In this document: piece after piece, positions 36,160 to 61,114 of the stretch
Layout of the letters: every line of letters begins with the position of its first letter
How positions within the stretch are numbered: position 1 is the first letter of the stretch
DNA from: an uncultured Prevotellaceae bacterium
GTDB taxonomy: Bacteria > Bacteroidota > Bacteroidia > Bacteroidales > Bacteroidaceae
NCBI GenBank assembly: GCA_900316445.1
Contig: ONCZ01000010.1
Span: 1 to 64,000 of the forward strand
Direction of reading: 5' to 3'
Length of the DNA stretch: 64,000 nucleotides
Translations under genes and position numbers: made by a program
Notes under the pieces: generated by a model
What the model saw: only the letters and a program-made list of their open reading frames with translations
Databases searched by the model: none
Told to the model about the DNA's origin: nothing

Positions 36160-36206
36160 AATCTGTTGTTATGAAATATGCGATCTTCTTCTATAATATC
36201 CGCCTG

Positions 36207-36238: not shown

Positions 36239-36295
36239 TCTTTTGGGCGAAATCTTCATCTCCCATTGCTTTTCGGAGCATTAAGCATAACAAAA

Positions 36296-36332
36296 GGACG
36301 GCTCTTCCGTTGTAACAACTTCAGAACCATCC
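36296..36332 (-). terminator. Terminator of the T6SS/BACON transcript
   Basis: On the minus strand GGATGGTTCT pairs with AGAGCCGTCC (two G-U pairs) followed by TTTT. It lies about 100 bases after the 36435 gene and before the DUF3791 promoter. The hairpin resembles that at 9498-9543, including GTTGTAAC/GTTATAAC in the loop. Confidence 0.6.
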
Positions 36333-36434
36333 CCTGTGTTACAGATGCCGAGGATTTACCTGGGGCCCATGCGGCCGGGACCACCTATGCCGCCCATTGG
36401 ACGACCGGCAGGACGACCGCCCTTGTAAGGTTTG

Positions 36435-39080: not shown

Positions 39081-41531
39081 TTACAAGTCTTTTTCTATAT
39101 AGGTGAATGTCGTATGGCCGATGGTGAAGCTCTTGCCGTGATAGAGCCACACCTCCTTGCCGACAGGCAGGGGCTTGCCCTCATCAACCGTCACGCCCTC
39201 TTCCAATGCCTTGAGACGCAAAGAATCGATATGGCGCTTGATCTCAGCATGCACAGGAGATACCTGGCCCATGACATCCCACGACAGTTGGATGCTGCAG
39301 TCGACCGACTTTCCAAGGGTGACAGCCTCGGTCGGAGAGGCCTTGAACCACTTATAGAGTGCAATGTCCATCTCCTTGATGGCACCCTCCACATGCAGGA
39401 AGAACCGTTCCGAACGCGGTGTGACATGGGCAATGCACAGGGCGATGGCCACGGCATAGACGATGAAGCCGATCAGCAGCGACACCCGGTAGTCGAATAC
39501 CGTGTTATAATAGACAAATGCCCACATAAACATGGTGAATACGGATATCAGGCATGCCAGGATGAGGAACGTGCGGCGGATGGGTGTGCGCGTCTTGAAG
39601 GTGACGGCCAGCATAATGAAACCACTCAGCAGCGCCCAAGGAATCCATTCGGTGAGGAACGTGCTGTATTCGAAATGGAGGAGGATGGAGACAAGACAAC
39701 CCAACAGGCAGAGGATGCTTCCTACTGCTCCGGCAATGATGGCACGGAGCAATATCTCGGCGATGCGATAGAACCACTCACGGTGACGGACGGTGAAGTT
39801 CGACAGGAAGAGTGTCAGCAGGAAGCCTACGGCCTGACCAAAGGCCGGCAGGTCGTTCAGGCCTGAGCCATACTCGAATTCAAAGTTCTCCGCATCGACA
39901 GTATTATGGTGGAACACCGTTTGCAGGTACTCGATGATCGATGTCGACATCGGATGGTCACGAGAGACGAATACAATCCAGGCAGTAAAGCCCGCCAAGA
40001 TGGCGACAAGAATCCACTTCATATAGTACAGCGGATTACGCTGGTCCAACAGATTATGGCTATTATAATAATGTGAACCTTCCTGGCAATGACGACCATG
40101 TTCGGGACAGTGGTACTCGTTGTCGTCCCAACATTCCTTGTGCATCGTATGCTTACATTTCACAACAATCTCATCACCTTCCTTGAAAGGAGCCTTGCAG
40201 AGATAACACGACTCGGATACCGGTTCCCCCCGGAAACTCATCTTACTGCCCAAGTACTTAATGACATACTTACGCTCGAAGAAACGATAGCGGATGTAGG
40301 GTTCCAAGAACTGGAAAATGCCCCATACCAACAGGATAATGATCAGGGTGATCACGATGCCGATGGTGATGAACTCAATCATGGGGCCGTCGTCTATGAT
40401 GAGAGGACTATAGACCGAACCGAGTGAGAATTCCGTCTGTCCCTTGGCTATCAGGTCGCCGGTTTTCTTGTCGTTGAAGGAGATCTCGAGAATATGACGA
40501 TCGCCACGGAAGACCTTATGGTCTGGCTGTTCCAAGGTAATCTTGTAGTTGGAGAGGTCGATATGGTAGTCATGAAGGATGTCTTCCTCCATCTCCTGCC
40601 AGTTGAACGAAGGCTGGTACAGACCTCCCAACGACTTACAGAAATACTGCAGAATGTTGCTGTCGCTGGTATTGTCTGACAGAGCCATGAGTTCCAGACT
40701 TTCGGGAGTGCTGGGAGAGAAGTTTGCATAGTAGGCCTGTATCATGCCCTGATAAAGCTGTGACTTGTCTTTCAGCAACTGCTGAAGTTCAAAGTGTTTG
40801 GGATCTACAGGCTGTTCACCATCATAGGTCTTTCCTCCAGAGAGGATCACCATCACCTTGTGGCGTGCGCCTCCTATCGTCGTACTCTCATCCTGCATCT
40901 CCGCCAATTTTGTCACGACCGAACGGTAGAGATAGATGGTCGCCGGATCCTGGTGGACGAAATAGTTATCAATGACGTAGTCCGTTGCCTCATAGGTCTC
41001 TGTGACGTTGTCGTTCTGCATGAAGGCAACAAAGAGGTTTTGTCCGCCAAAGAGAGCCTTGATATCCTTGACAGCCTTACGCTCAGCGTCCACCTGCTGC
41101 TGGGGTAGACTCAGGTCGACCAGGGCAAGCAGTTTGATATCCAGCTTATTGAAGATCTCCCTGCTGGCATTGCTTACCTTCGTAATCTTTGGCTGACTCT
41201 CCCGGCCCAGTCGGTTCAGTATGCGCTTGATATGCTGATAGGGTGTGGCGACCACAACTGAGGAGTCCGTCAGGTCTTGACCTCCTACTTCATGCATCAG
41301 GCGTGCGGACAGTTCCATCACCTTATAATCGTCGGAGAATTCGATGCTCGTGATCTGCAGGGCATCCCCAACCACTTCCTCCTTATCGTCAGACGACAAG
41401 ATGTCGTCAATATCCGGAGCTGTCTCCTCATCACAAGAAGTCATTAACAGTGAAAAGGTGAAAAGGTGAAAAAGTAAACAACTCATCACCAACCACCTGG
41501 TCCGCATTGTCGTATATCTCTTTGTCATCAT
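39081..41531 (-). CDS. RING-FHA membrane protein with periplasmic vWA-like domain (E3-like candidate)
   Basis: 816 aa. Lipoprotein-type signal (LLMTSC, Cys33). Residues about 60-300 look like a vWA domain (VDLSLP near 139, VMVILSGG near 230). A first membrane helix lies at 385-406. It is followed by a RING-like cluster: Cys442, Cys445, Cys459, His461, His464, Cys467, Cys475, His478. About six further helices lie between 503 and 703. An FHA-like domain occupies 735-812 (GKSVDCSIQL, SPVHAEI, FTIGHTTF). The topology puts RING and FHA in the cytoplasm and the vWA domain in the periplasm. With E1, E2 and ubiquitin-like genes in the same operon, an E3 ligase role is the natural inference. It is the last clearly T6SS-linked gene. 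Confidence 0.85.
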   Translation of the reverse strand: MMTKRYTTMRTRWLVMSCLLFHLFTFSLLMTSCDEETAPDIDDILSSDDKEEVVGDALQITSIEFSDDYKVMELSARLMHEVGGQDLTDSSVVVATPYQHIKRILNRLGRESQPKITKVSNASREIFNKLDIKLLALVDLSLPQQQVDAERKAVKDIKALFGGQNLFVAFMQNDNVTETYEATDYVIDNYFVHQDPATIYLYRSVVTKLAEMQDESTTIGGARHKVMVILSGGKTYDGEQPVDPKHFELQQLLKDKSQLYQGMIQAYYANFSPSTPESLELMALSDNTSDSNILQYFCKSLGGLYQPSFNWQEMEEDILHDYHIDLSNYKITLEQPDHKVFRGDRHILEISFNDKKTGDLIAKGQTEFSLGSVYSPLIIDDGPMIEFITIGIVITLIIILLVWGIFQFLEPYIRYRFFERKYVIKYLGSKMSFRGEPVSESCYLCKAPFKEGDEIVVKCKHTMHKECWDDNEYHCPEHGRHCQEGSHYYNSHNLLDQRNPLYYMKWILVAILAGFTAWIVFVSRDHPMSTSIIEYLQTVFHHNTVDAENFEFEYGSGLNDLPAFGQAVGFLLTLFLSNFTVRHREWFYRIAEILLRAIIAGAVGSILCLLGCLVSILLHFEYSTFLTEWIPWALLSGFIMLAVTFKTRTPIRRTFLILACLISVFTMFMWAFVYYNTVFDYRVSLLIGFIVYAVAIALCIAHVTPRSERFFLHVEGAIKEMDIALYKWFKASPTEAVTLGKSVDCSIQLSWDVMGQVSPVHAEIKRHIDSLRLKALEEGVTVDEGKPLPVGKEVWLYHGKSFTIGHTTFTYIEKDL

Positions 41532-41547
41532 AATTTCTAATTGCTCA

Positions 41548-42426
41548 TTATATCGTGGGATAATTATGTTGTCCTTTCATCATTTCCTTCATCTTCTTGG
41601 CCTGGTCACGAGCCTGCTTGACCTGTGCGAGCTTCGACTTCAGCAGGTTCAGTCCCATCAGCAAGATAGCCACACAAGCCAGACCCATCAGATAATCCTT
41701 AACACGCTGGATAAAGGGTTTATAGGCCATCTCCTGAATCTTCGCGGAGACGGTCTGCAGTTCGAAGACTTTATTCTCCATCGCCGTCATCCGGAGTTCG
41801 AGGCCTGGAAATGCCGTCGCCGCGTCCTTGGCCTGACCGTAGTATTTATTGACGTCAGCCGTCAGTGCCTGTTCCGTCGCCTTGACTTTCTCCAACTGGG
41901 CCGCCAGTTTCGGCGACATCGAGTATTGTATGGCTTTTTTGTATAACTGACGGTAGTTCTTGTCCTGACCCCAGATGAACTTCTCTGCCGTAGAGAAAGC
42001 CACCAGCTGGTCGCGCTGCTGCTGACGGAGAGCGAGCGTGTCGGTGACGGCCTGCCGCATCTGTTGGATGATAGCCACCCGGTTGAGAAGACTGTCGTCG
42101 TCGGCAATATACACTTGCTGGGCGGCAGAATAGGTGTCCCAACGAGTGGAGAAGGAGGTCAAGGCCGATGACAATGACTTGAGGCGCTCGGAGACCACAT
42201 CAAGGAGCGGTTCGTTCAACGGCATATCCATGTCGATGTCCACACGGAACTTACAAAGGGCATTCAACTGTATCAGTTCCTCCTGAAACAGCTCTATGTG
42301 CTCATTGATGTCTGTAAAGGTGGAATCGAGTTCCTCCTCAGCAGACATCCCCCCCTGTGCCCATGCCACCGAAGGCAGCATGCACACGAAGATGATGAGT
42401 CGCCATAAGTTCCTTTTTATGTTCAT
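41548..42426 (-). CDS. Periplasmic coiled-coil protein with C-terminal membrane helix
   Basis: 292 aa from the ATG at 42426, which overlaps the preceding stop (TAATG). Signal peptide MNIKRNLWRLIIFVCML to AWAQ, then a long helical, coiled-coil-like domain (about 25-235). One membrane helix follows near 245-262 (LMGLACVAILLMGLNLL), then a basic cytoplasmic tail (KQARDQAKKMKEMMKG). The layout suits an envelope-spanning assembly factor. No named T6SS subunit was recognised; it could stand in for a TssN-R membrane-complex protein. Confidence 0.75.
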   Translation of the reverse strand: MNIKRNLWRLIIFVCMLPSVAWAQGGMSAEEELDSTFTDINEHIELFQEELIQLNALCKFRVDIDMDMPLNEPLLDVVSERLKSLSSALTSFSTRWDTYSAAQQVYIADDDSLLNRVAIIQQMRQAVTDTLALRQQQRDQLVAFSTAEKFIWGQDKNYRQLYKKAIQYSMSPKLAAQLEKVKATEQALTADVNKYYGQAKDAATAFPGLELRMTAMENKVFELQTVSAKIQEMAYKPFIQRVKDYLMGLACVAILLMGLNLLKSKLAQVKQARDQAKKMKEMMKGQHNYPTI

Positions 42427-43616
42427 TATCTGTTGCAATTGTTTCTAAAATAACGTTCCGCCTCACGGAATACCTGCACAGCCTGTTTCTGCTCTGTGGT
42501 ATAGACACCCTGACTATGGATGGTTTCATTACAGGTCTTGATAAGAGTCTCCGTCTGGAAGATGATGTCACGACGCTCGACAGGATCATTCGACAGCAGA
42601 TAACGCGACACTGCTGCATCTATCTGACGGGCTTTTGTCAACAGCGACCTGGAATTCAGACCTTCGCTGCCTGAGAAGATGGACTTAGCTGCAGCGACGA
42701 CCTTACAGTTCATTCTACTGATGGAGTCGGTGTAGGCGTTATAGGCGTCCCAAGCCGCCTGGATATCCGGACAGAGACTTTGTTCGTTCTTACGAGGATA
42801 CTGTTCTGTGAGCTGACTCTTCAGATCCTGGAAGGTCTTCAGACTCTCCTCGCTATCGACAGTACCGCTGCCAAAGCTCTTACGCAAGCTGTTATAACTC
42901 TTGCGGACGCCTTCGAGAGCCGCCTTTGCCGAGGCAATGTCTTCATCCAGTCCGAAGCAGGGATTGCGCTGGATTTCCACATGATACTCCGTGTAGAGAT
43001 CACGGCCGAAGGGGATCTCAAACCGCCGTTTGTTGATATGCTTGCTGACATCGTTCATCAGCATCACGTCACGAAGACGGACAACGACGGAATTGCTTTT
43101 CTTCAAAATGTCGAAGGTCTGGGTGATGTAGTCGTTCACCATGGCATACTCCTGCGGTGCAGGCTGCAACCCCTCGTAGTCAATCCAGCGGTGGAAGACA
43201 TACTTTTTAGTGGGTCTGGGCACCGTGTTCTTGAAGAGCTTGGAGATGCGGTACTGATCCTTTGGTTCATAGGTGACCACGTAAGGCAACTGGTCGGGAC
43301 GGAGCTTGCGGCCCTTGATGAGCGGTTTGAAGCGTACATCCTCCCTGAACACGAAGATCATGCGATGGGAGATCAGCGTCACCGTCAGTTGGTTGGCCGC
43401 CTCGTCGAAGACGAACTTCACCATAATGTCCTTGTCGGTGACATCGCCTTCCAGGCTGATATGATCGGTATAGGATTGCTCCTGGCTGACCGCAATGCTC
43501 TTTACTGTCTGGGCAGATAGAGGTAAATAGGTGAAAAGGTGAAAAAGCAAAACACTTATCACCAACCTTTTACCAATACTCTTATTATATAATTTCATAT
43601 TCATTTGTATATTCAC
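42426..43616 (-). CDS. Periplasmic protein of the T6SS/ubiquitin-like operon
   Basis: 396 aa. The signal peptide includes VLLFHLFTYLPLSAQ, part of which is encoded by a GGTGAAAA repeat. The first half is beta-rich (about 35-215), the second helical (about 225-396, SAKAALEGVRKSYNSLRK). No known motif or family was recognised. It is coupled to the next gene (TAATG) and lies 26 bases after the E2 gene. It is probably part of an envelope complex with the coiled-coil protein and the RING/FHA protein. Confidence 0.75.
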   Translation of the reverse strand: MNIQMNMKLYNKSIGKRLVISVLLFHLFTYLPLSAQTVKSIAVSQEQSYTDHISLEGDVTDKDIMVKFVFDEAANQLTVTLISHRMIFVFREDVRFKPLIKGRKLRPDQLPYVVTYEPKDQYRISKLFKNTVPRPTKKYVFHRWIDYEGLQPAPQEYAMVNDYITQTFDILKKSNSVVVRLRDVMLMNDVSKHINKRRFEIPFGRDLYTEYHVEIQRNPCFGLDEDIASAKAALEGVRKSYNSLRKSFGSGTVDSEESLKTFQDLKSQLTEQYPRKNEQSLCPDIQAAWDAYNAYTDSISRMNCKVVAAAKSIFSGSEGLNSRSLLTKARQIDAAVSRYLLSNDPVERRDIIFQTETLIKTCNETIHSQGVYTTEQKQAVQVFREAERYFRNNCNR

Positions 43617-43642
43617 CTTTTCACATTTTCACCCTTTCACCT

Positions 43643-44218
43643 TCAAAAAACCGTCCATTCCTTCGGTTCTCCCTGACGGACAACCCAAGCAGCAACCTTG
43701 AGATCCTCGGGATACGGTGGTTCGGAAATGGCATGATAGACCTCATAGCGCAGATAGTGCGCCACCCGTTCCACGGCCCAGGCAAGATCGGTATAGGTGT
43801 CGGGCATGTTGATGCACACCCTTCCGGCAAAGTCGCCGAAATACCGGATGTTGGGATGCCAGGGATGAGGAATGGGTTGTCCCTGCTCATCGTGGGTCAG
43901 AAAACGGAATGCCGGAGCCGCGTCGACCGACGGGTAACCATCTGGCAGATCTATCCGCATCTGGAAACCAGTGGAAAAGACCGGTGGATTCTCTGCGCCG
44001 GGTTCTCCGAAATGCTCCAGGTTCTCAACCCCACTGATGCTCCTCAGCTGATAGTCGACCAGATAGGCCGTGGGCAGTCCGTCCTTGTTACGGCGGACGG
44101 GCTGACACGTGATGTCATGCCGATGCTCCAGCCGTTGGTCTAACTGCTGCCACTCATACAACAGGCGCCGGCTGCGCCCCTTGTACCGGCTTATCTCATA
44201 TCGGTCGCTCTCTCTCAT
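43643..44218 (-). CDS. E2-like ubiquitin-conjugating enzyme
   Basis: 191 aa. The UBC fold can be followed: a beta segment FQMRIDLPDGYP (86-96), AAPAFRFLT (100-108), the HPN motif at 121-123 (WHPNIRYFG) and the predicted catalytic cysteine Cys135 in GRVCINMPD. The C-terminal helix is AWAVERVAHYLRYEV and PPYPEDLKVAAW follows. E2 enzymes carry ubiquitin or a relative as a thioester on this cysteine. Its ATG overlaps the stop of the ubiquitin-like gene (ATGA), which argues that the two products work together. The length is close to that of a plain E2 with an N-terminal extension. Confidence 0.9.
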   Translation of the reverse strand: MRESDRYEISRYKGRSRRLLYEWQQLDQRLEHRHDITCQPVRRNKDGLPTAYLVDYQLRSISGVENLEHFGEPGAENPPVFSTGFQMRIDLPDGYPSVDAAPAFRFLTHDEQGQPIPHPWHPNIRYFGDFAGRVCINMPDTYTDLAWAVERVAHYLRYEVYHAISEPPYPEDLKVAAWVVRQGEPKEWTVF

Positions 44219-44532
44219 CCTGGGAATGGGTCTGGCATCAGGAACACTTTATCGCCACTCTGCACACCGTAGTCGAGCAGCGTCTGGTCTGTACGTCCGA
44301 TTCTCGGACGGAGCACACGTATCTCGTGCACGTCAGGATCCTCACGCCCGAAGAAATAGTCAAGGGGCGCTCCCGTTCCGTCGATGGACGGGAAGTCGAA
44401 GATCAGTTTGCCGTCTTCGCCGATGGCATGCGTCAGGTTAGTCATCAGCGTGCTCAGCGGAGCTTCTGGATTTACTACCCTGAAACGCACGGTCTTGTTC
44501 TTATACACAATGTCTAAAAAGAAATCTTCCAT
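44215..44532 (-). CDS. Ubiquitin-like (beta-grasp) protein
   Basis: 105 aa. The pattern DIVYKNKTVRFRVVNPE, a helix (LSTLMTNLTHAIG), and LLDYGVQSGDKVFLMPD fits a ubiquitin/YukD-like beta-grasp fold. The last residues are PFPG, so a glycine is already exposed at the C-terminus and no processing protease is needed. Its stop overlaps the E2 start. It starts 36 bases after tssF. It should be activated by the E1-like protein (48777-49958) and passed to the E2. A role as a non-conjugated YukD/EsaB-type subunit is the main alternative. Confidence 0.82.
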   Translation of the reverse strand: MEDFFLDIVYKNKTVRFRVVNPEAPLSTLMTNLTHAIGEDGKLIFDFPSIDGTGAPLDYFFGREDPDVHEIRVLRPRIGRTDQTLLDYGVQSGDKVFLMPDPFPG

Positions 44533-44568
44533 CTATAAACTATAAACTAAAAAACTATAAACTCTAAA

Positions 44569-46278
44569 CTATTTCTTCTCAATATTCAATGTGACGATCA
44601 CCGGATAGATGTTGGTGCTCCTCACTTCGATCATCTTCTGCATGAGGATTCCCACCCGCGAGGCCTTCTCCGCAAAGCTGCGCTTGACGAACGGATTGTC
44701 GGCCAGCACGATCTCCACCACAATCTCATAGCCGCAACCACGACGGTCCAGCTGTTGGCGACGGTTGACCGTCAGGCTCTTCACCATATCCCGGACGATG
44801 CCATAACGGGTCAGCAACTCGTTGTAACAGAACAGTTTGATGTCTGCCAGCGTCACGATGCGGTCGCTCGTGGCGATATAGTACCGTGAGAGGCTGGCCA
44901 GGGCGGCCTCTTCCGTCATCTCGTCCTTACCCATGACGGGGTTGGCTATCTGTCGTGTCTGGGCGGCACTCAGTCCTCCTGGTACGGTGAAGGTGCTGTC
45001 AGCATTCAGCGAAGCATTGACACCTGCCCCTGCTGTCGTGAGATAGCTCACATCGACACTTCCCTTTCCACTCTCAATGAGGTGGGGATTTCGCAGCAAC
45101 AGGTAGACGCCTGGCACCTGTCGCAGCTGATCTTTCTTAGATATCTCCATCAGTCGTGTCAGTGTCTCCTGCAGTGACTGCATGGTCTTATCGCCCGAGA
45201 AGCCCTGCAGTCCCTGGAAAGCATAGAAGTCTGAGTGATATCTGGCGATGAGGGCGTTGAGCAGACGCACAAGCCGTCCTTGGTTGAAACGGTCGGCTGC
45301 CACCTTGCGCACCTCGATCAGGCTGTTGCCGTAGAGTTGTTCCTCTGAAGGACGCACAGCATGGAGGAACTGCAGGTTCACATGATCCTCGTCCTTGTCA
45401 TAGCCTGCCACACGCGCGATGGGTGTCTGACCGCTCAAAGTTGTCTGATGCAGCTGGGCATTCACCAGCACCACCGGATTCAGGGATAGATGCTGCTTGT
45501 CGAAGACAAACTGGTCGGAGACTCCTGAGAACTCGAAGATGAGGTCAATGACGTCTGTCTCTGTAGAGAGGTACCGCACCGGGCCGTGATGACGGAGGAT
45601 GAACAATCGGATGTTCTGGCGGGCAAACAGGTCGAGACAGGTGGCGGAGGCCTCATAGGTCTGCGACCGGTTGTAGAGTATCGTGTCCAGTCCGAAACAG
45701 TCCTGGAGGGGGAGTTCGGAATAGTCCCACGGTCTGATGAGGGGCAGCTGATGGTCCTTGATACTGACGGTGAGATCCTGGAAGTCCAGGCTGTCCACCG
45801 CAAAGGCAAATCCCGACAGATCCTTGATGGGTGTGCTGAAATGGAAGGTCACCTTGAAGCGACGACCGTCCATCCTTATGATAGATTTGATCTTTGCATT
45901 CAACAGACGGGTTTTCAGCAGGGGAATGAATGCATAACCGGTGCCGTTGAGCATGAAGTTACTTTGGGCATTCATCTCCAACTCCGGCACAGAGTCCTGC
46001 AAGGTTGTCTCCACCACGGCTGTGGCAGGTACGGCATGTCCCACCTCGAAGGGTGTCAGCAACTGGGCAAAGTCCTCCATCACCTCTGTCTTCATGGCCT
46101 CCAGGTCGCTGGCACTCTCATTCGCCTGATAGGCCATGGCTGTGATCATCAGCTTGAGAACGGGGTCACTCTCAAGTCCTTCAAGCTTGTCGTTGTCATC
46201 GCTCTGCCGCCAGATGTTGAAAGCCTCGCGCAACAACTCCTCTGCCCTCTGTTTGGTTTCAAATATCGTCTGTTTCAT
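44569..46278 (-). CDS. tssF: TssF baseplate subunit
   Basis: 569 aa, the usual TssF size. It begins MKQTIFETKQRAEELLREAF and has the TssF-typical early segment with PVLKLMITAMAYQANES, then EDFAQLLTPFEVGHAVPATA. TssF is the main wedge protein of the T6SS baseplate and works with TssE, TssG and TssK. It follows tssE by 19 bases and precedes the ubiquitin-like gene. Confidence 0.88.
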   Translation of the reverse strand: MKQTIFETKQRAEELLREAFNIWRQSDDNDKLEGLESDPVLKLMITAMAYQANESASDLEAMKTEVMEDFAQLLTPFEVGHAVPATAVVETTLQDSVPELEMNAQSNFMLNGTGYAFIPLLKTRLLNAKIKSIIRMDGRRFKVTFHFSTPIKDLSGFAFAVDSLDFQDLTVSIKDHQLPLIRPWDYSELPLQDCFGLDTILYNRSQTYEASATCLDLFARQNIRLFILRHHGPVRYLSTETDVIDLIFEFSGVSDQFVFDKQHLSLNPVVLVNAQLHQTTLSGQTPIARVAGYDKDEDHVNLQFLHAVRPSEEQLYGNSLIEVRKVAADRFNQGRLVRLLNALIARYHSDFYAFQGLQGFSGDKTMQSLQETLTRLMEISKKDQLRQVPGVYLLLRNPHLIESGKGSVDVSYLTTAGAGVNASLNADSTFTVPGGLSAAQTRQIANPVMGKDEMTEEAALASLSRYYIATSDRIVTLADIKLFCYNELLTRYGIVRDMVKSLTVNRRQQLDRRGCGYEIVVEIVLADNPFVKRSFAEKASRVGILMQKMIEVRSTNIYPVIVTLNIEKK

Positions 46279-46297
46279 TCAATTCTCAATTTCTTGA

Positions 46298-46753
46298 TCA
46301 ATTCCACACTTTGATAACTTGGTCGTAGATGTAATCCTCTTTCGTGCTTATGATGACACCTTTTACAGTAATATAGATCAGTCGCTCCTCACGGATATAA
46401 GTCATCGACACTGTGATCTTCTCAAGCCGATCCTCATATTTGGTGATGGCGGTCTTCAGTTCTGCGGCAAAGGTATTGATACTCTTTGAAGAACCGGAGA
46501 TCTTCTTGTCGTATGCCCCTTGGATATTGCTCATCGAATCGGTGTCGCCAGAGTCGAAGACGACGCCCTCGTTCTCATTGAACATCTCAAACCGCAGGTT
46601 ATTGAACACGAAGCCAAACTGCGGGTCGGCCGGCGTACTGAAACGCTCGGTCGTGATGATGAGGTACATATTCGCGTCGATCGATCTTTTCAGACTGTCT
46701 TCACGCTGCAGTCCCTTGGGGGTCAGTAGGAGTGGTATGCTGATGCTGGTCAT
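46298..46753 (-). CDS. tssE: TssE (gp25-like) baseplate subunit
   Basis: 151 aa. Near residues 103-115 it has TKYEDRLEKITVSM, which corresponds to the EPR-type motif region of gp25-like proteins, and a beta-rich end (ERLIYITVKGVIIS). TssE links baseplate and sheath. Gene order tssG-K-E-F with gaps of 12-20 bases supports the call. Confidence 0.82.
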   Translation of the reverse strand: MTSISIPLLLTPKGLQREDSLKRSIDANMYLIITTERFSTPADPQFGFVFNNLRFEMFNENEGVVFDSGDTDSMSNIQGAYDKKISGSSKSINTFAAELKTAITKYEDRLEKITVSMTYIREERLIYITVKGVIISTKEDYIYDQVIKVWN

Positions 46754-46765
46754 CTTATTTACAAA

Positions 46766-47971
46766 TCAGATTAGCGGCACGAATTTCTCTTCTTCCGGTT
46801 CCGGCACGTAGAGTGCCTTGAACAGGTTCTCGAACAGGTCGAAGTACAATTTCTCATAGAGAGACTCATTGAGTTGCTTGCCAAGCTCGTCGAACTTCGC
46901 TGTCAGCATCTCGCTCATCTTGGTCTGACGGTCGTTCATCTCCGTTGTCAGCTGTTCAAGGATGGCCGTCTTCAGGGTCTCGTTGATATAGGTGGTCAGC
47001 TGCTCCGTCTGCTGCCTCATCTCCTCGCGCAGTTCTTCCTTCAGGTCAGCCAGCAGCTTCTCGATCAACTCCGGATGCAGTTTCTCGTACAGTTCTTTCT
47101 TAGCCTGGGCGAGCAACGCCTCATAGTCGATGGTGTTGTCTTCGAGCACCACTCCGTCGAGGATGATGGCGGCTCCCTTCATGTAATCCTCAAGCCATTG
47201 CAACCAAGCCTGTATATCTATCTGCTGGGGTTGTGGTATGTCGAGGGGCTGGTCCCTGTTGGGTGTCACGACATAGTAGTCAATGGCCTGGGCCATCTCC
47301 TGAGTGAGCAGGATGAAGTTCTGCATGGAGTTCTTTATGTTATAGTTCTTGAGCTGGAAGACATAACGCAGGAAAGCCCGTTTGCCTTCTCCCTCGGCCA
47401 GGTTGGGATGAGTCGACAGAATGGTCATCTGTTCTAAGTAGCTGTTAAGATACTCCTTAAAGCGGATATTCTCTGTCAGCAGCAGACAGGGAGGCATATA
47501 ACTGGTATCAGCAGAGAAGATGCCCTCGGCCACATGGAAGCGCAACAGGGGGAACAGATCATTCGCCTCTATCTCTTCCCTGGTATGGATACCATAGACG
47601 TAGTGAGGTCTGACGAATGCCACGCCCTTCTTCTCAAACTCCACCTGATCATTGCCGAATCCTACCGTCAGATAGTATTTGTCGCCGAAAAGCATAGGTA
47701 TGGTCACCTCTATGTCCTCGTCGGCATCGATCACTCTTCCTGACGGCAGCACAGCCTGACAGCGGAAGCCTGACACTTCGAAGCGGTTCTTGACGAAGAT
47801 ACCGTTACAGTTGAAAGGAGAGCCCGGCACCAGTCCCATACGGCTGTTGCCTACTGCCGCACGGATGGCCAGCATCTGACGGAAATCCCACTGTTCTGAG
47901 ATTCCTGAGAATGTCTCGGCCGTCAGCTCCATGCCTGGCACCCAGTTGATTCTTGAATTAATATCGACCAT
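46766..47971 (-). CDS. tssK: TssK baseplate-to-membrane connector
   Basis: 401 aa. The start INWVPGMELTAETFSGI is the T6SSiii version of the conserved TssK N-terminus (the WxxGMxLxxxxF pattern). The C-terminal third is a long coiled coil (KELYEKLHPELIEKLLADL). TssK trimers join the baseplate to the membrane complex. The coiled coil here is longer than I would expect for proteobacterial TssK. Confidence 0.85.
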   Translation of the reverse strand: MVDINSRINWVPGMELTAETFSGISEQWDFRQMLAIRAAVGNSRMGLVPGSPFNCNGIFVKNRFEVSGFRCQAVLPSGRVIDADEDIEVTIPMLFGDKYYLTVGFGNDQVEFEKKGVAFVRPHYVYGIHTREEIEANDLFPLLRFHVAEGIFSADTSYMPPCLLLTENIRFKEYLNSYLEQMTILSTHPNLAEGEGKRAFLRYVFQLKNYNIKNSMQNFILLTQEMAQAIDYYVVTPNRDQPLDIPQPQQIDIQAWLQWLEDYMKGAAIILDGVVLEDNTIDYEALLAQAKKELYEKLHPELIEKLLADLKEELREEMRQQTEQLTTYINETLKTAILEQLTTEMNDRQTKMSEMLTAKFDELGKQLNESLYEKLYFDLFENLFKALYVPEPEEEKFVPLI

Positions 47972-47991
47972 TATATTTATGATTTACTATT

Positions 47992-48780
47992 TTACGATTT
48001 GCTTACCTCTGTATTATACCCTAATGTCAAGCGGGTGTCGGTCTGCGGGGGAACATCATACTCTTTGATGACAATCTCGCACCACACCTCGAGAGGAATC
48101 ATCCACTCACACAGGAACTCCCGCAGCGGCTGAATCTCTTTGTCTTTCGCCTGAAACTCTTCTGGTGTCAGACCGGGGATGACCAGATCATATCTCACCA
48201 TAGGCAACCAACTTCTGGTCGTGTCGCTATGGCTATAACGACCAGTCGTCATGTTGACCTCACATTTGATCAGTGTCCGAAGCAGATTGGCGATAAAGCC
48301 GAAGTCTCCCCTGCGACGGTTCACATATGGGAGCAGAATGGCTGCCTCACGGACATAGGGGTTCTCAATCTTGTCGAGATCGACACCGAAATAGGTGTTC
48401 AGGATATAGGCCAACTTACCCTGAAGCAGACTGTCCATCTGATGCTCCACGTAGAGACTCTCACGGAAGCGGTAAGTGTCGATGGGTTTGAAGGTCTCGC
48501 GGAGGAGTCTGAGTTTCAACTCCAACTGCTTGAACTTCTCTGCAGCGTCCTCACCCTTCAGGTCTGTCTCGTGGGTGAGCAGTCCCTGCGGCAACAGCTT
48601 AATGAAGCTGTCACGTGCCGTCTGTGCCACCATCTTCTCTTCGTCGATGGTGAGCAGGTCGCTGTTATAGTTACGGAAAAATGTTCCCTCATTCTGGGTA
48701 GTCCACTGGTTGTACATCTCCGGATAGAGATAGTTCAGCAGTAGTTCTGCACGGATTTCGGGTATACTATTCTTTATCAT
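47992..48780 (-). CDS. tssG: TssG baseplate subunit (divergent)
   Basis: 262 aa. Position between the E1-like gene and tssK, size and segments such as EIRAELLLNYLYPE and FGVDLDKIENPYVREAA fit T6SSiii TssG. Its ATG overlaps the stop of the E1-like gene (48777-48780), so baseplate and E1 production are translationally coupled. The call rests partly on gene order. Confidence 0.72.
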   Translation of the reverse strand: MIKNSIPEIRAELLLNYLYPEMYNQWTTQNEGTFFRNYNSDLLTIDEEKMVAQTARDSFIKLLPQGLLTHETDLKGEDAAEKFKQLELKLRLLRETFKPIDTYRFRESLYVEHQMDSLLQGKLAYILNTYFGVDLDKIENPYVREAAILLPYVNRRRGDFGFIANLLRTLIKCEVNMTTGRYSHSDTTRSWLPMVRYDLVIPGLTPEEFQAKDKEIQPLREFLCEWMIPLEVWCEIVIKEYDVPPQTDTRLTLGYNTEVSKS

Positions 48781-49958
48781 TCTTCACGTCTTATTTCAAA
48801 ATAAAAACTTTCGTCGTCTGCTGTCACCTGCACGATGTCGTGCTGTGGAATGCCGAGCTGTGCCAATGTCAGTGACGGATAGGGGAATCCAGCGTCGATA
48901 TGACGATACTCATGCTGGTAGAGTGCACTCAGAGGCTGTCCGTCCAAGGACTTCTCACCAGCCACCTTGTCAGCCACCGAACGACCGGGAACCATCATCG
49001 TCACCCGCTCGTCGTTATCGCGCCTCGAGACATAGTCTACGAAACAGTCATTCGTCAAACAGAGTGTGATCCCCAATTGTCCACTTCTCAAGAATCCCAT
49101 TCTCTTTAATTCCCGGGTCCAGCACTGAAGGGCTTCGCCGACGGGTGTGGCATCACTGACCGCCGTCTGACAGACAGGTGTCCACAATTCATGTTCGGGA
49201 CACTCGTCATCGTAGGCCTGATAGTCCGCGATGCGGACCGTCGTATGCTCCCCGTCGTAATACAACATCTTTCCACACAGCGACGTCATTTCCCCGTTTC
49301 CTTCTCTCCTTCTCTCCTTCTCTCCTTCTCTCCTTATTATTATCTTCAGCGTCTCCTGAACCTCGATGGCTCCGATGATGGAGGCGATGACGGAAGTCGT
49401 AGGGGCAGAGCCTGTCTGTTCCTGCCTCCGGATGATACCGGAGCAGGGCATCCGTCTCGCCAAATCCTTTAGTCCTTCGGGACCTAGATTACAGGCATAG
49501 CAGTTCTTTCCCGGTGCGAACACGCGCACTGTTCCTTCCAGTCCGTCGATACCGCCGTCCACCCAGGGGATGCCAGCCCGCATACAGAGACGATTGATGC
49601 AGAACCGTGCCCAACGGCTGTCCACACATCCAATGACGACATTCATCTGACGGATGAGTCCCAAGCCGACATCATAGGCGATATCACCACAGATGGCTGT
49701 CACTTCTACGGCATCGTTCATCTGCTGCAGTCGTTCTGCCACCACTTCCACTTTCAGCCGTTTCCTCTCGGCATCGCTCTTTGAGAAGAGGACGGAACGG
49801 GTGAGGTTACCCATCTCCACGATGTCGAAGTCAACGACCACGATATGAGTGACACCCATCAGCACCAGGTTCTTGAGCACCTCGTTACCCAAGGCGCCAC
49901 AGCCAACCACCATCACATGGGCGGCACTTACCTGATTCTGTCTGATGTCCATACTCAT
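48777..49958 (-). CDS. E1-like ubiquitin-activating adenylyltransferase (ThiF/MoeB fold)
   Basis: 393 aa. The Rossmann ATP-binding motif is GCGALGNE (19-26). VDFDIVEMGNLTRS (42-55) supplies the Asp and Arg of the E1 family. ACNLG/CYAC at 153-156 and Cys172 (MPCSGI) give candidate zinc or thioester cysteines. APTTSVIASIIGAIEVQE (185-202) is typical of E1/ThiF. The last 35 residues (LTLAQLGIPQHDIVQVTA) resemble a beta-grasp end. E1 enzymes adenylate the C-terminal glycine of a ubiquitin-like protein. Codons about 209-220 are made of an 8-bp repeat (49300-49335). It overlaps tssG by four bases. Confidence 0.9.
   Translation of the reverse strand: MSMDIRQNQVSAAHVMVVGCGALGNEVLKNLVLMGVTHIVVVDFDIVEMGNLTRSVLFSKSDAERKRLKVEVVAERLQQMNDAVEVTAICGDIAYDVGLGLIRQMNVVIGCVDSRWARFCINRLCMRAGIPWVDGGIDGLEGTVRVFAPGKNCYACNLGPEGLKDLARRMPCSGIIRRQEQTGSAPTTSVIASIIGAIEVQETLKIIIRREGEKERRREGNGEMTSLCGKMLYYDGEHTTVRIADYQAYDDECPEHELWTPVCQTAVSDATPVGEALQCWTRELKRMGFLRSGQLGITLCLTNDCFVDYVSRRDNDERVTMMVPGRSVADKVAGEKSLDGQPLSALYQHEYRHIDAGFPYPSLTLAQLGIPQHDIVQVTADDESFYFEIRREE
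49300..49335. repeat. 8-bp tandem repeat in the E1-like gene
   Basis: CCTTCTCT is present four times with a partial fifth copy (CCTT). On the coding strand it gives the charged segment REGEKERRREG. Gain or loss of one unit would shift the frame of the E1-like gene. Confidence 0.85.
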
Positions 49959-49992: not shown

Positions 49993-51417
49993 TCACTTAT
50001 GTTTTCTTTTTTTCAATTCCAGTTTAACGTAAGTCAGGTCATTCCCGACCACTTTGACCGTCTTCACAGCTCGAGAGAAACCGGCTTTCTCCAGCCTCAC
50101 TTCACAACGGCTGTCTCCAGGCAGGTCTTTGATCACACAGGGCGTCGTGCCGACAAGCTTGTCATTAATATAGACGTTTGCGCCTATCTCATTGCACTGT
50201 ACGTTGAGCATCCCGTAGTTGTCCATCGGGGGGAGGAGCTCCAATTTCACAGGTGTCGCATCGTAGACCCAAAGTGGCTTTGACTTCGACTCCAGACCGT
50301 CTTTCTCGGTGCTGACCAGGTAAAATCCCGGTTCCAGTTCCCCTTCCCAACTGCCATAGCCTTTCAGTTCCCTGTTGACCCAGATGCTCGTGAAGTCATC
50401 GACTGCCTTAATCGACACCGGAGCCTTGATCGCAACGTTGGGAGACTGGAGACAGGAGTCAGGAGTCTGTAGATTACCGTGGAGGGATGAATCCGCCGAC
50501 AGCGAATCTGTCTTCACCGAATCCCTCGCCAACTGCGCATAGTACCATTCCAAGCTCTTCTTGGTGCTGACAGGATGCAAGTCGGCGGCGGTCAGCTCTA
50601 TCGTCTTCTTCTCCTTCCAGCCGATATCGAAATCGGCATCGTAATAGCACAGGCTGTCCTTCATGACGATGAGCCGGTGACTGCCTTCCCGCAGATGACC
50701 GCTGGTACCCTGTGTCTTGCCGATCCACTGACCGTCGACTATGATATCACAACCTTCCAACTCGGTCTTGACGGTCAGATACGAGTAGACCGGCTGTAAG
50801 GCGATCTTCACGATCTTCCGTTCTTCGTCCGTCAGTTCGACAGTGTCCTTTTCCTCCTGATGGAAAGGAGCCTCTGCCAACCACGCATGTTTGCCGATGG
50901 GCAGGTACATCTGTTTCCGTCCACCATGAATCGTCGTCATGGTACTGTCAACAGTCAGGATGGCATCCTGAGGCTGTATTTCAAAGATCACCCACTGCTC
51001 TTTCAGCTTATATTCCTTATCAGGACTGAATGTCTGCAGGGTTGCCGAATAATGCTTCTTCCTGCGCAGTCCTTTTTTCTGAGGCACTTTCCACGTCAGC
51101 TGACCATAGTCGGCATGCTTCACCACGATGAAGGCTGTCTTGTCGGGCACCTTGAGAGTGAGGATCCCCTCCCCTTCTTCGGCCGCGACCTCCTGTTTCC
51201 CGTCAGCCATAAACGAGAATCCCTTCTCGCTGGTCTTCAGGTCCAGGATGGCCTCCTTCTTGCTGGTCACCACGTGGTTCATATTCAACGGCCCTTTCTT
51301 GAGTTTCTTGAACTCAACGATATGCATCTCCTGGGCCGTAGAAGTGAGAAGGTGAAAAGGTGAAAAGGTGAAGAGTAGCAGTAACATTCGATGCCACCAC
51401 TTACTGTAACCTCTCAT
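49993..51417 (-). CDS. Secreted PEGA-domain protein
   Basis: The frame opens at 51438, but the ATG at 51417 (MRGYSKWWHRMLLLLFTFS) is a better start. The signal peptide ends at STAQ and is partly encoded by a GGTGAAAA repeat. PEGA-type units lie at about 200-260 (LEGCDIIVDGQWIGKTQG) and 390-460 (GANVYINDKLVGTTPCVI). PEGA domains bind envelope or surface components; the exact role here is unknown. It lies between the PAAR-like gene and the E1-like gene with gaps of about 30-50 bases, so it belongs to the T6SS operon. Confidence 0.8.
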   Translation of the reverse strand: MRGYSKWWHRMLLLLFTFSPFHLLTSTAQEMHIVEFKKLKKGPLNMNHVVTSKKEAILDLKTSEKGFSFMADGKQEVAAEEGEGILTLKVPDKTAFIVVKHADYGQLTWKVPQKKGLRRKKHYSATLQTFSPDKEYKLKEQWVIFEIQPQDAILTVDSTMTTIHGGRKQMYLPIGKHAWLAEAPFHQEEKDTVELTDEERKIVKIALQPVYSYLTVKTELEGCDIIVDGQWIGKTQGTSGHLREGSHRLIVMKDSLCYYDADFDIGWKEKKTIELTAADLHPVSTKKSLEWYYAQLARDSVKTDSLSADSSLHGNLQTPDSCLQSPNVAIKAPVSIKAVDDFTSIWVNRELKGYGSWEGELEPGFYLVSTEKDGLESKSKPLWVYDATPVKLELLPPMDNYGMLNVQCNEIGANVYINDKLVGTTPCVIKDLPGDSRCEVRLEKAGFSRAVKTVKVVGNDLTYVKLELKKRKHK

Positions 51418-51468
51418 CTTATGACGATCATCTCTCACCTTTTCACTTTCTCACCTTTTCACCTTTAA

Positions 51469-51858
51469 TCACTTTCCCTGAGTCGTCATACTTCCACTGG
51501 GATTGGTGACAGAGATATTGCCACCCCAGGTACACATACATTTGGCGTTGTTGATGAGTGCAGGCATATTCATGACCTTCACCTGTCCACCGGGACTCCA
51601 CGGTGCCGGAATCACAGGGACACAAGGCATCGGTGTGAGTACACCCATAGCAGCGGCAGTGGCTGAGGCAACCGTCGGATTAGCCATCGACTGACACATG
51701 CCGAAAGGCATAATGTTTACCATCGGAGCAAAGTCGGTGATGTTGGCCATCAGCATGTTACCACATTTGGGGCGCAGCGGCACAATCACGTTCAACGTGG
51801 ACGGTGCCATACCGAAACTACATTGGAGCATCGCTCCCTGACATACAAAATTTCCCAT
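51469..51858 (-). CDS. PAAR-like protein (DUF4280)
   Basis: 129 aa, many cysteines and glycines: CQGAMLQCSFG at the start, PMPCVPVIPAPW in the middle and CMCTWGGNISV near the end. This is the DUF4280/PAAR-like pattern. Such proteins cap the VgrG spike and may carry effectors. No effector domain is attached. It lies downstream of vgrG in the T6SS operon. Confidence 0.87.
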   Translation of the reverse strand: MGNFVCQGAMLQCSFGMAPSTLNVIVPLRPKCGNMLMANITDFAPMVNIMPFGMCQSMANPTVASATAAAMGVLTPMPCVPVIPAPWSPGGQVKVMNMPALINNAKCMCTWGGNISVTNPSGSMTTQGK

Positions 51859-55596: not shown

Positions 55597-58500
55597 CTAT
55601 ACACTATTTACCTTCTTCTGTAACGCTATCGGATAAGCGGAGATAACTCCAGCTATATTATCTTTCTGCTCCAGCACACCTCCGTTAAAATGGATCGTCG
55701 CACCAGGTGTGTCAGACAGCAGGATGCGACCTTTCTCGGCTGATCTCCATCGATTCGTGATGGAAATGGCATCAATCCACGGATTGACATATCCATCAAT
55801 AAAGTAGTTCTTCGCCCACTTAACGAAAGAGTTCTTTATTGTCAAGAAATTCTTGTCAAGATTGTCAGCCGGTTTTATTCTCTTGGAAAAATTCGCCCAA
55901 TCAGTATCATTTGCGTAATCTGGTTCTGCACCAGCTTCAAGTTTAATCAGCTTTTTAAAGTTATCATCAGTTTTGATTTCATTTATTAATTTATAGACAA
56001 TCTTTCTGTGGAGGATGGTCATCTCTCGGGCAAAATTAGTCAAATCGGTAGTTTCTGATACAGTTCCTGCATTGATCTTTGCTATTAATCCGTCATTCCC
56101 ATTATTCATAAAGATGTCAAGTCCGCGGATTGCAGTTTGAAGGCCATCTGAATAATAGCAGTCCCACTTATCCACTTTAGAAAGTGTGAACTCATTCCAT
56201 GCTTTTGCAGCATCGAATAGAGCTTTCAGGTCAACACCAACTTTCTGAGCACCAGAAACGATATCAGCTCTTTTCTTTTGAATATCCTCATTCTGATTGA
56301 CCATATTTCCTTGTAGATTCACCTGCACAAGAGCTTGATTATGAATTTGTAAAATTACAACGTCGTCATTTCGCTGGTTCTCATTTTGCTGGTTCTCATT
56401 TTGCCCACCGCCATTATGAAGCGTAAAAGCAGGAATATTATCAAAATCGAAACTATTTACATCGATAATATCTTCTATCTTAAACTTTTTCTCATTACAG
56501 TTGTCAAATATTTTCTTTATAAGTCCATTTTCTCCTGCGACAAACTTCAGTTTTTGTAAATTATCATAGCCTGAAAGAGCTTTGTATTTGGTGGCGGAAG
56601 CCTTTACATTCTCATAAGCAGTCTTGATATTATTACAAATCTTATCGGCATTTGAGGTCAGCATATCGATAGACCTAAACACATCACCCAAAGTGTGACC
56701 TGCCCTGTCGAAACTCTTAACCATCTCCCTTCCAGGATGTTCAAGGTTTTCGAACGGTGCCTCGGCCTTACCCTTGCCAGCCTCTATCATGACGTAACTG
56801 TTAGACTTGATCTTCAGCGTGCCATCAACAGGACGGGTGAACACCTCCAATATAGTACGGAAAAACGACAGGTCAAGCCATTTGCCAACCGTCCTATTCA
56901 ACACATCTTCACCCATGGTACCTAATCCCCACTTCGCCCAGGATCCCAAGGACTTCACATTATCTGGCGGATTCACAAAATGGTCGCCGGCTGCTGTACC
57001 CGAGATCAACGAGAGCTTGTTGCTGGCAGAGATCGACACATTCTTGCCTTCTATCTTGACATTGCCATTCGGCGCGGAAATGGTGATGCCTGTAAAGGCA
57101 TTCAAACTGACGTTACCCAGGGGGGAAGCGATATTCACCGAACGTTTGTCTGACGACATATTAATCTGATACAGACCATAGCGGTCAGTGATATTGATGC
57201 CGCCAGTAAGATCGACCATGTCCTGGTTAGTGATTAGCGGTTTGTAAAGAGGGATTACGCTCCTGATAAACGAGGCCGCAGGAGACAGCCCGATCAGGAA
57301 ATCTACGCCGTCAGTTTTATCATTAAAGGTAATGGAATGACCATTTTTCGACCGGATGACACGGTCGGGCAGAGGCAGCCACGGATCCGTGACATATCTT
57401 GACTGCAAGGAGCCAACAATATAGGGCCGTTCGATATTACCGTCCTCATAGTTGAGCAACACCTCATCCCCAGTACAAGGTCTGAAGGTGACACCACCGC
57501 CGGCAGTGGCAAAGGGTGTCGCCATACGGACCCAAGGCGACTTGTCGCCGTCCTCTGGCTGCCAAGGATACCTCACACGTACCCGTCCAAAACGGTTCGG
57601 GTCGAGATTGTCCTCCACAAAGGCCACCTGAGCCTCCGCTGTCCTGACGGTCGGGATCTCCGGCATCAGCGGCGGACACGGGATGGCTTTCTGTATTTTG
57701 TCAGAACTCACTTCCTTATACAAAGGAGGTATGGCTTCAACGATATAGTTTCCGCTCTCATCCAGTTCCACCTTGATGACAATGTAGAAGCCTCCCCCCA
57801 CCTTGATCACGTCACCTAAGCACAGGCCTTGATCATCTGCTCCGTAGTTCAATCTGACAAGTAACTGACTGACTGTCTGAGAGGCACGACGCATCTTGGA
57901 ATAGAAAGCGGCCGTCAGCAATGACACAACATTACCTTTTTGGTTGACGGTCAGGCTGCTGTCAGAAATGAGGGATTTTAGGGTAGAGAACAGATTGAAC
58001 GTTGTGCCGTCGGTCTGGTCGGAGTTTTCATCCTTGTCCAGAGTCAGGTTCTTGTCATTGTTTTGGTCGTTCTTTTTCTTCATGGACACGCCAGCATCCT
58101 TCGCCGTTTGAGCGACAGACCAGGCGAGATCTGAAATGATGTCGTAAAGACTGGTATCATTCAAGACCGTATAAAAGAGATTGAGCAACATTAACCTGTA
58201 ATCGAACGACTCATCGGAAAAATTGGTGTAGCCGTTCTTTTCAAGTTCCACGAAATTGGCATCGTTAGCCTCCGGCTGGTTATAAACAGCCTTGAATCCC
58301 TGACCTGTAAGCACCTTAGTCGTTTTGGGTGTTGAGACAAGTTTACCGTCTTGCTTCTTATACTTTGTAGAGCCGTCTTTATCTTTTGCTACATTGCCAT
58401 CTGTATCTTTTTCCTTTTCATATTCGTAAACTACTGTTTCCGTCAGCTTCCATAATTCCTCATTCTCGCTGTTGGTAATCGTAGTTGTTGTCACGACCTT

Positions 58501-59562
58501 ACTGATCTCACCCTTCAGCTTAACTACTTCTTTGTCATCACTGTTATAGAAAGAGGTCTCAACGATGACCGTCTTTTTTCCTTTCTCATAATTAAAGATT
58601 GTTGTTTCCTTCACCAAACCCTCTTCTTTACCTGTCGTAGTTGGACCATCCTTCGACTTATATTCACCAAGTAGCGACGTGGGAGAATCGACATAACGGT
58701 TGTCGTTTTCCGATGAACGCATGGTAAAATCATAGTGACAACCTTCCACATCGAGCACATGATCGACAGATTCCTCATAGTCCACAGAGTCGGCCACACC
58801 CGACTGGTCTTTTGATGCCTTCTCAAGATCTGGTTTCATGCCTAAGTTCAGTGATCCCCCCTCAAAATACAACATCTCGCCACAACGGATGGCACTACGA
58901 GCCAGGAAGTCATAGAAACTTTCATTATATTGCACAAGATACGGCTGTCGGATTTCTACCGTATTGTCCTTATTATAGTTCAGGAACTGAAGATTCACCT
59001 TGCCCTGAAGCTGCGCTGGGTTTGGAGTGAGAATGAATTTCTTGATGCCTTCAGTGAAGATCTCACCGCCCAATTTACGTGCTGTATAGGCGTAACAGTA
59101 CTTGTCGATGGTTGCCAATTTGTCCATGCTATAGCAGAACAGTTCCACATAAAGGCTTGTTGCAGTAGAACTCTTTTTTTGGATAGGCTTCATCTTATAG
59201 ACGAAGTAATTCTCTGCCACTTTAAGATCTTCTGTATCATTATTATACACAAGGGTCACCAACTGTCTGGAAAATTTCTCCTGCAAAGCAGAGAAATTAG
59301 GAAATACACTAGAACTATCTGTATCACCGGAACTACCAGAACTACCGGAACCACTGGAACCATCTGTGCCACCAGAATTATCTGTTTTACTCACTTTAGT
59401 CAAGTCCAACTTTACATGTATATAACCTGGCGCAAAGATTCTTTTTTGATAGTCCAGTTTATCAATTGACACGTTATATTCGACAGAACCGATGGCGACT
59501 ACAGTGTTATCTTCCGCCTTAATATCACTAATAGAACCAACTGTCAATTTATATTTTCCCAT
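55597..59562 (-). CDS. vgrG: VgrG/TssI spike protein with long C-terminal extension
   Basis: 1321 aa, about twice the usual length of Bacteroidales VgrG. Residues about 1-620 are the gp27-like part with a low-complexity insert (GSSGSGSSGSSGD, about 70-85) and a Lys-rich insert near 380-420. The gp5 OB fold lies at about 640-730 (DPNRFGRVRVRYPWQPEDG). A beta-helix needle follows at about 780-860 (GNVSLNAFTGITISAPNGN). Residues 880-1321 are mostly helical with a QNENQQNENQRN stretch and no recognised domain; this could be an effector or a docking region. VgrG trimers form the puncturing tip. Confidence 0.9.
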   Translation of the reverse strand: MGKYKLTVGSISDIKAEDNTVVAIGSVEYNVSIDKLDYQKRIFAPGYIHVKLDLTKVSKTDNSGGTDGSSGSGSSGSSGDTDSSSVFPNFSALQEKFSRQLVTLVYNNDTEDLKVAENYFVYKMKPIQKKSSTATSLYVELFCYSMDKLATIDKYCYAYTARKLGGEIFTEGIKKFILTPNPAQLQGKVNLQFLNYNKDNTVEIRQPYLVQYNESFYDFLARSAIRCGEMLYFEGGSLNLGMKPDLEKASKDQSGVADSVDYEESVDHVLDVEGCHYDFTMRSSENDNRYVDSPTSLLGEYKSKDGPTTTGKEEGLVKETTIFNYEKGKKTVIVETSFYNSDDKEVVKLKGEISKVVTTTTITNSENEELWKLTETVVYEYEKEKDTDGNVAKDKDGSTKYKKQDGKLVSTPKTTKVLTGQGFKAVYNQPEANDANFVELEKNGYTNFSDESFDYRLMLLNLFYTVLNDTSLYDIISDLAWSVAQTAKDAGVSMKKKNDQNNDKNLTLDKDENSDQTDGTTFNLFSTLKSLISDSSLTVNQKGNVVSLLTAAFYSKMRRASQTVSQLLVRLNYGADDQGLCLGDVIKVGGGFYIVIKVELDESGNYIVEAIPPLYKEVSSDKIQKAIPCPPLMPEIPTVRTAEAQVAFVEDNLDPNRFGRVRVRYPWQPEDGDKSPWVRMATPFATAGGGVTFRPCTGDEVLLNYEDGNIERPYIVGSLQSRYVTDPWLPLPDRVIRSKNGHSITFNDKTDGVDFLIGLSPAASFIRSVIPLYKPLITNQDMVDLTGGINITDRYGLYQINMSSDKRSVNIASPLGNVSLNAFTGITISAPNGNVKIEGKNVSISASNKLSLISGTAAGDHFVNPPDNVKSLGSWAKWGLGTMGEDVLNRTVGKWLDLSFFRTILEVFTRPVDGTLKIKSNSYVMIEAGKGKAEAPFENLEHPGREMVKSFDRAGHTLGDVFRSIDMLTSNADKICNNIKTAYENVKASATKYKALSGYDNLQKLKFVAGENGLIKKIFDNCNEKKFKIEDIIDVNSFDFDNIPAFTLHNGGGQNENQQNENQRNDDVVILQIHNQALVQVNLQGNMVNQNEDIQKKRADIVSGAQKVGVDLKALFDAAKAWNEFTLSKVDKWDCYYSDGLQTAIRGLDIFMNNGNDGLIAKINAGTVSETTDLTNFAREMTILHRKIVYKLINEIKTDDNFKKLIKLEAGAEPDYANDTDWANFSKRIKPADNLDKNFLTIKNSFVKWAKNYFIDGYVNPWIDAISITNRWRSAEKGRILLSDTPGATIHFNGGVLEQKDNIAGVISAYPIALQKKVNSV

Positions 59563-61068: not shown

Positions 61069-61114
61069 AATATTTAAATTTTATGGTTCAACTTACTTCT
61101 TAACTCTCAATTGA

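Follow-up and report, generated by a model that had tools for sequence, protein, structure and literature searches.

In this study, a 64,000-nt stretch of DNA from an uncultured Prevotellaceae bacterium (contig ONCZ01000010.1, positions 1 to 64,000; hereafter the window) was analyzed, in which genes predicted to encode a ubiquitin-type conjugation cascade are embedded in the operon of a type VI secretion system (T6SS), a weapon resembling a phage tail. A single run of T6SS genes was read on the minus strand from 64000 to 39081, in the order ClpV, TssB, TssC, Hcp genes, VgrG, PAAR-like, PEGA, E1, TssG, TssK, TssE, TssF, Ubl (ubiquitin-like protein), E2, P45, P33, and a membrane RING protein, with the conjugation genes sitting among the tss genes. 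An earlier note on this DNA had placed an E1, a Ubl ending in PFPG, an E2 with HPN and Cys135, and a membrane RING protein on one strand among tssG, tssK, tssE, and tssF; all were found to be encoded as placed. The gene overlaps of 1–4 nt that it described were also observed, with 4 nt for E1/TssG, 4 nt for Ubl/E2, and 1 nt for P45/P33 when ATG is taken as the start of P33 (a TTG start is also listed).

When genome contigs were scanned with an E2 profile, 120 pattern matches were obtained; 113 of them were confirmed as relatives, and 80 of these loci were examined. They stem from Bacteroidales/Bacteroidia, including Prevotella, Xylanibacter, Alistipes, Parabacteroides, Bacteroides, Mediterranea, Millionella, Paludibacteraceae, and Candidatus Physcousia, among others. 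Co-occurrence with T6SS genes was seen in 80/80 loci, and 70 of the 80 carried E1-TssG-TssK-TssE-TssF-Ubl-E2-P45-P33-RING in one order and on one strand. Among the other 10, the contig ended within the block in eight, and P33 was fused to RING in three (L010 showed both); as far as each contig reaches, no contrary gene order was found in the 80 loci. With start codons taken mechanically, the 4-nt E1/TssG overlap was present in 43/76 loci. In these Prevotella-like gut and rumen bacteria, genes predicted to encode all of E1, E2, Ubl, and RING are a constant component of the T6SS operon. In L067, TssF and Ubl are separated by an additional PEGA-matching frame, the sole interruption of the ten-gene block noted.

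The ThiF match of E1 covers residues 7–254 and is followed by an additional C-terminal stretch of approximately 130 residues; C153, C156, C172, C253, and H256 were invariant (71/71), with C172 being the putative catalytic cysteine. The E1 profile matched UBA7 (1.5e-35), with BubCD also among its matches in the Protein Data Bank (PDB), and the E2 family profile matched human E2-K (1.4e-4 to 4e-4) with WHPN and the Cys aligned, the Pfam UQ_con match of E2 being below cut-off (5.3e-4). A single-chain model of the Ubl gave a beta-grasp fold resembling the Ubl domain of EccD, the window sequence itself matching Pfam ubiquitin at only 0.26. The RING family profile matched the RINGs of RNF165 weakly (4e-3). 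The HPN and the catalytic-position Cys of E2 and the eight RING ligand positions were invariant in 71/71 sequences, and the C-terminal PG of the Ubl was kept in 80/80 loci. Judged by these residues, the conjugation parts look active. A protein database held 709 relatives of E2 at E 0.01.

The membrane RING protein has a hydrophobic N-terminus with a conserved Cys33, lipobox-like by eye, followed by predicted vWA (approximately 121–325), transmembrane (TM; approximately 387–405), RING (442–482), membrane-bundle (504–703), and FHA (737–805) regions. The FHA match was over the Pfam cut-off (2.1e-5); Prok-RING_1 (3e-4) and zf-RING_2 (5e-4) were both below it. P45 has an N-terminal hydrophobic segment (18–36), signal-like by eye, and P33 has a membrane segment at approximately 250–271 and an N-terminus that is signal-like by eye. 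P33 and RING share one open reading frame in three loci (L010:5648-8977, L012:11725-14925, and L014:11812-15081), which supports a physical platform.

The baseplate genes were named as follows. The TssG family profile matched the TssG-place gene of L109 (2e-16), and the TssG of G178 links the Pfam-confirmed TssG of L108 with the window family (188 bits). TssK was below the cut-off of NCBIfam TssK (1.1e-3) and aligned with the TssK-place genes of TssN-type loci over residues 6–238 of 401 (hhalign 97.8%); the first three fifths are alike, and the C-terminal part is unlike that of TssN-type TssK. No Pfam match was obtained for TssF, either for the window gene or for the two genes of L108 used in comparison, and the name follows from similarity to TssF-place genes of TssN-type loci (L108, 4e-14 and 1e-12; L109, 3e-23) and from its position beside TssE. 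Of the T6SS-iii components, the window carries the Bacteroidota-type TssC sheath and TssD tube and the baseplate proteins TssE, TssF, TssG, and TssK (Table 1).

Table 1 Genes of the T6SS operon in the window and the basis of each assignment
Feature	Position	Strand	Basis
ClpV ATPase, C-terminal part, cut by window end	63456..63998	-	Place and homologues in relatives
TssB sheath	62944..63408	-	Place beside TssC and homologues in relatives
TssC sheath	61542..62906	-	PF17541 5.7e-101
Two Hcp/TssD genes	60670..61507	-	Pfam TssD (PF17642) 2.5e-23 for 60670-61068
Second of these two Hcp/TssD genes	61115-61507	-	Similarity
Divergent Hcp/TssD-like gene	60092-60511	-	Pfam TssD 5.6e-11
Divergent Hcp/TssD-like gene	59577-60077	-	Pfam TssD 0.012, below cut-off
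VgrG-like spike	55597..59562	-	Phage_base_V 3.3e-17
Ribosome-recycling-factor-like protein	52862-53581	-	Pfam RRF 2.2e-11
PAAR-like DUF4280 protein	51469..51858	-	Pfam 2.3e-30; NCBIfam IglG 3.7e-9, below cut-off
PEGA-domain protein, neighbour in operon	49993..51438	-	Pfam PEGA 1.2e-17
E1-like adenylating enzyme, ThiF fold	48777..49958	-	Pfam ThiF 1.2e-50
TssG	47992..48780	-	Family-profile similarity; chain to Pfam-confirmed TssG
TssK	46766..47971	-	hhalign and profile coverage
TssE, gp25-like baseplate wedge	46298..46753	-	Pfam GPW_gp25 5.3e-7, over cut-off
TssF	44569..46278	-	Similarity and place
Ubl, C-terminus PFPG	44215..44532	-	Modelled beta-grasp
E2-like conjugating enzyme, HPN 121-123, Cys135	43643..44218	-	
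P45, conserved partner	42426..43616	-	
P33, conserved partner	41548..42438	-	
Membrane RING protein	39081..41531	-	

The distribution of TssN (PF17555) was compared with that of the cascade in an order-wide sample of 247 genomes (TssC in 8, E2 in 5) and a class-wide sample of 267 genomes (TssC in 11, E2 in 4, and TssN in 12, 9 of them over cut-off), which together held 18 TssC-positive genomes. Five of the 18 had E2 and no TssN match (G000, the window genome, and G046, G178, G242, and G454), 11 had TssN without E2 (G019, G100, G144, G279, G357, G365, G430, G449, G485, G496, and G502), and two had neither, namely G239 (65% complete) and G394. TssN was present in 11 of the 13 cascade-free genomes; the Fisher p was 0.0025, uncorrected for kinship. 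Three FHA proteins, a Ser/Thr kinase, an M23 peptidase, and WG-repeat proteins are encoded near the T6SS of G394 (L129 and L130). In 12 more cascade genomes, reached via their loci, ten had no TssN match and G247 had one below cut-off; G251 had, on a contig other than that of its cascade, a TssN-type T6SS locus in which TssR, TssP, TssO, TssK, TssN, TssG, ClpV, TssF, and TssE were recognized by profile. According to PMC10781749, the TssN gene of T6SS-iii lies between tssK and tssG; the gap between tssG and tssK did not exceed 102 nt in 76/76 cascade loci, leaving no room for it there. TssR (PF17643) was not found in the 5 E2-positive genomes of the order sample, but it is a weak marker, since 7/10 genomes with a TssR match lacked TssC and the TssN-positive G100 lacked TssR. 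Pfam TssO had no match among the scanned window genes, a genome-wide search not being made.

The reading we favour, with the scales standing about level, is that the window carries a subtype of T6SS-iii whose baseplate is assembled or docked at the inner membrane by a Ubl-conjugation module acting through the membrane-bound RING protein; the module would stand in for TssNQOPR, the membrane complex of the T6SS-iii loci GA1–GA3 as described in PMC10781749 and PMC4714493. TssN is given as near-universal in T6SS-iii in PMC10781749. The earlier note had proposed that the cascade controls firing or assembly; the presence of the cascade where TssN is missing points to anchoring or assembly rather than to control of firing alone. 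The tagging pathway likely helps to anchor or assemble the T6SS. Conjugation, its target, the topology, and the takeover from TssNQOPR are all inferred. In this scheme the Ubl, adenylated by E1 at its exposed C-terminal glycine, would pass from E1 to Cys135 of E2. The vWA-TM-RING-TM-FHA protein, P45, and P33 would form a membrane platform, the RING would recruit E2~Ubl, and the Ubl would be attached to a baseplate or platform protein, where it would serve as the docking element normally supplied by TssN. In PMC10781749, the cytoplasmic domain of TssN is reported to have a ubiquitin-like fold and would dock the baseplate, and a conjugated Ubl is on that account a plausible stand-in. The more specific version, that the non-covalent beta-grasp hub of TssN was replaced by a free Ubl that a membrane vWA-RING-FHA ligase attaches to baseplate or platform proteins, is put forward tentatively, as possible but doubtful. 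If this version is true, the membrane anchoring of a contractile weapon would be built through ubiquitin-like conjugation, and tagging of the ubiquitin type would belong to the structural assembly of a secretion machine in bacteria.

Several observations weigh against this reading. The conjugates are predicted and none has been observed. In G394, which belongs to the same family as the window, the T6SS lacks TssN and no E2 was found, so that TssN can be lost without the cascade being present; this T6SS may represent a third mode of operating such a system. The TssK of G046 is near full-length TssN-type despite the cascade and the missing TssN, indicating that the change in TssK is not strictly coupled to the cascade. 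No sequence relation was found by hhalign between the RING protein and TssN (4%) or TssR (0.1%), or between the Ubl and TssN (0.1%), the TssN and TssR profiles having 3 rows each. The 4-nt Ubl/E2 overlap was kept in just 11/80 loci (mechanical starts), and a version that has no JAB and seems irreversible would be unusual for a regulator. Finally, PMC10781749 states that the membrane complex, whole or in part, was present in all 443 T6SS-iii detected, Prevotella included; on that statement, divergent TssO/P/Q/R may be hidden in the cascade loci.

The strongest competitor, though we think it somewhat unlikely, is that the cascade switches firing or the loading of effectors post-translationally, by modifying Hcp, VgrG, PAAR, or effectors, with P45-P33-RING solely a membrane-bound E3 and an unrecognized protein making the membrane complex. 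The FHA domain of the RING protein, a kinase gene close to the cascade-bearing T6SS of G454, and the kinase and FHA genes of the TssN-less G394 are reminiscent of the phospho-switches of the Pseudomonas T6SS. The vWA-RING-JAB module, moreover, is also found without T6SS and hence need not be structural. The absence of TssN where the cascade is present and the P33-RING fusions favour instead a structural membrane role, and the ten-gene block holds no other membrane candidate. A defence module, antiphage or protecting against incoming attack, that hitchhikes in the T6SS operon is improbable. Bil and Bub, bacterial operons with E1, E2, Ubl, and JAB, act against phages, BubCD is among the PDB matches of E1, and E1 matched the E1-E2 models of PADLOC (best 2.9e-16); however, none of the PADLOC models (2023) was matched by E2, Ubl, RING, P33, or P45 at E 0.01, E2 had no plasmid match, and the genes are interleaved with tssG/K/E/F rather than appended in 80/80 loci. 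Still less probable is a ThiF/ThiS-like sulfur-carrier pair of E1 and Ubl, with the E2 and RING folds as non-catalytic scaffolds: E1 is of ThiF type and its best NCBIfam match is ThiF (1.2e-39, below cut-off), but E2 has an invariant HPN and catalytic Cys, the ligands of the RING are likewise invariant, and the genome holds a separate ThiS/MoeB/JAB-like set (named by eye). A chance or strain-specific insertion of a ubiquitin operon beside T6SS genes, the finding that the earlier note had said would overturn its view, is refuted by the 80/80 loci and by the rearranged yet complete sets of G046 and G454.

The earlier note had seen no JAB peptidase. This held for the window and the 80 close loci, in which a motif search found no JAMM motif, and failed for more distant relatives, as the T6SS-linked cascades of G046, G178, and G454 carry a JAB/JAMM gene; the absence is thus a local feature of the window clade. 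In G046 and G454 the cascade parts and tss genes are complete and rearranged in order, in G178 the same kind of set is spread over two adjacent stretches, and in G242 the contig stops before E1 and RING would come. E1, Ubl, E2, JAB, and RING also occur in G016, G259, and G457, which have no TssC match; their Ubls matched Pfam YukD at 1e-7 (G259, over cut-off), 1.3e-5 (G457), and 4.6e-4 (G016), the latter two below cut-off. The trees fit a series from the module alone, through the module with T6SS and JAB, to the module with T6SS and without JAB, long branches and rooting weakening this. The single Prok-JAB match of the window genome (L137, C47) adjoins MoeB-like, ThiS-like, and CysE-like genes (by eye), and the protein probably serves sulfur metabolism.

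Beside the T6SS-free module of G016 (L114, L118) are genes for SrfB (1e-213) and a Virul_Fac protein (1.8e-139), the latter presumably SrfC-like. This genome also has a second JAB protein, a subtilisin-like gene (by eye), and an open frame with what look by eye like two Ubl units and an extension beyond the glycine.

Compared with known systems, the window operon shares with the Bacteroidota T6SS-iii (GA1–GA3) the phylum, TssC (PF17541), Hcp/TssD, VgrG, and TssE, and by similarity TssB, ClpV, TssF, TssG, and TssK; it differs in that TssN was undetected in the five cascade genomes of the samples and E1, E2, Ubl, RING, P45, and P33 are present instead. Burroughs and co-workers reportedly described operons of Prok-RING_1, YukD-like Ubl, E1, E2, and JAB in 2011. 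These resemble the present set in having a Prok-RING_1-like motif on a membrane RING protein, in E1 and E2, and in the YukD-matching Ubls of the T6SS-free relatives, whereas the T6SS linkage and FHA domain of the window and the lack of JAB in its clade set it apart. Bil/Bub operons share E1, E2, and Ubl, and JAB with the relatives; unlike them, the window set is interleaved with T6SS genes, has a membrane vWA-RING-FHA protein and separate E1 and E2 proteins, lacks an operon JAB, and shows no PADLOC match for E2 and Ubl at 0.01. PpkA-Fha-PppA controls the Pseudomonas T6SS by threonine phosphorylation and likewise places an FHA domain within the T6SS locus, but in the window FHA is fused to RING, and no kinase or phosphatase was found among the scanned operon proteins.

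To our knowledge, bacterial ubiquitin-like cascades have so far been known mainly from antiphage defence and cofactor synthesis. A cascade within a secretion-machine operon comes with defined, purifiable likely substrates (TssK, TssF, TssG, TssE, TssB, TssC, Hcp, P45, and P33) and with a membrane RING protein supplied alongside them. It also reveals a subtype of T6SS in which no TssN is detectable, and the relatives, which differ in whether they have JAB and whether they have T6SS, outline a path by which a weapon could acquire a conjugation module. In the main text of a 2016 T6SS-iii paper (PMC4714493) the words 'ubiquitin' and 'ThiF' are absent, and in the 2024 paper (PMC10781749) 'ubiquitin' occurs twice, both times for the TssN/EccD fold. 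No description of the fixed cascade-T6SS combination was found in the open-access literature searched; bacterial ubiquitin-like modules and T6SS-iii are each known, and their combination is new as far as searched.

Several other features were observed in and around the operon. The ribosome-recycling-factor-like gene was present in 55/81 sequences, the window counted, and a PDB sequence search with its protein gave no match. Past the operon end (25478-38999, minus strand), very large repeat-domain proteins are encoded, BACON- and InlB-repeat-like by eye. Close to the T6SS locus, the window also encodes a small protein with LYHG near its start (35465-35965, minus strand), and a similar one occurs at L113:13371-14120 (minus strand), the two lying near or inside two such T6SS loci; by eye, they are presumably of the DUF3990/ADP-ribosyltransferase-like kind.

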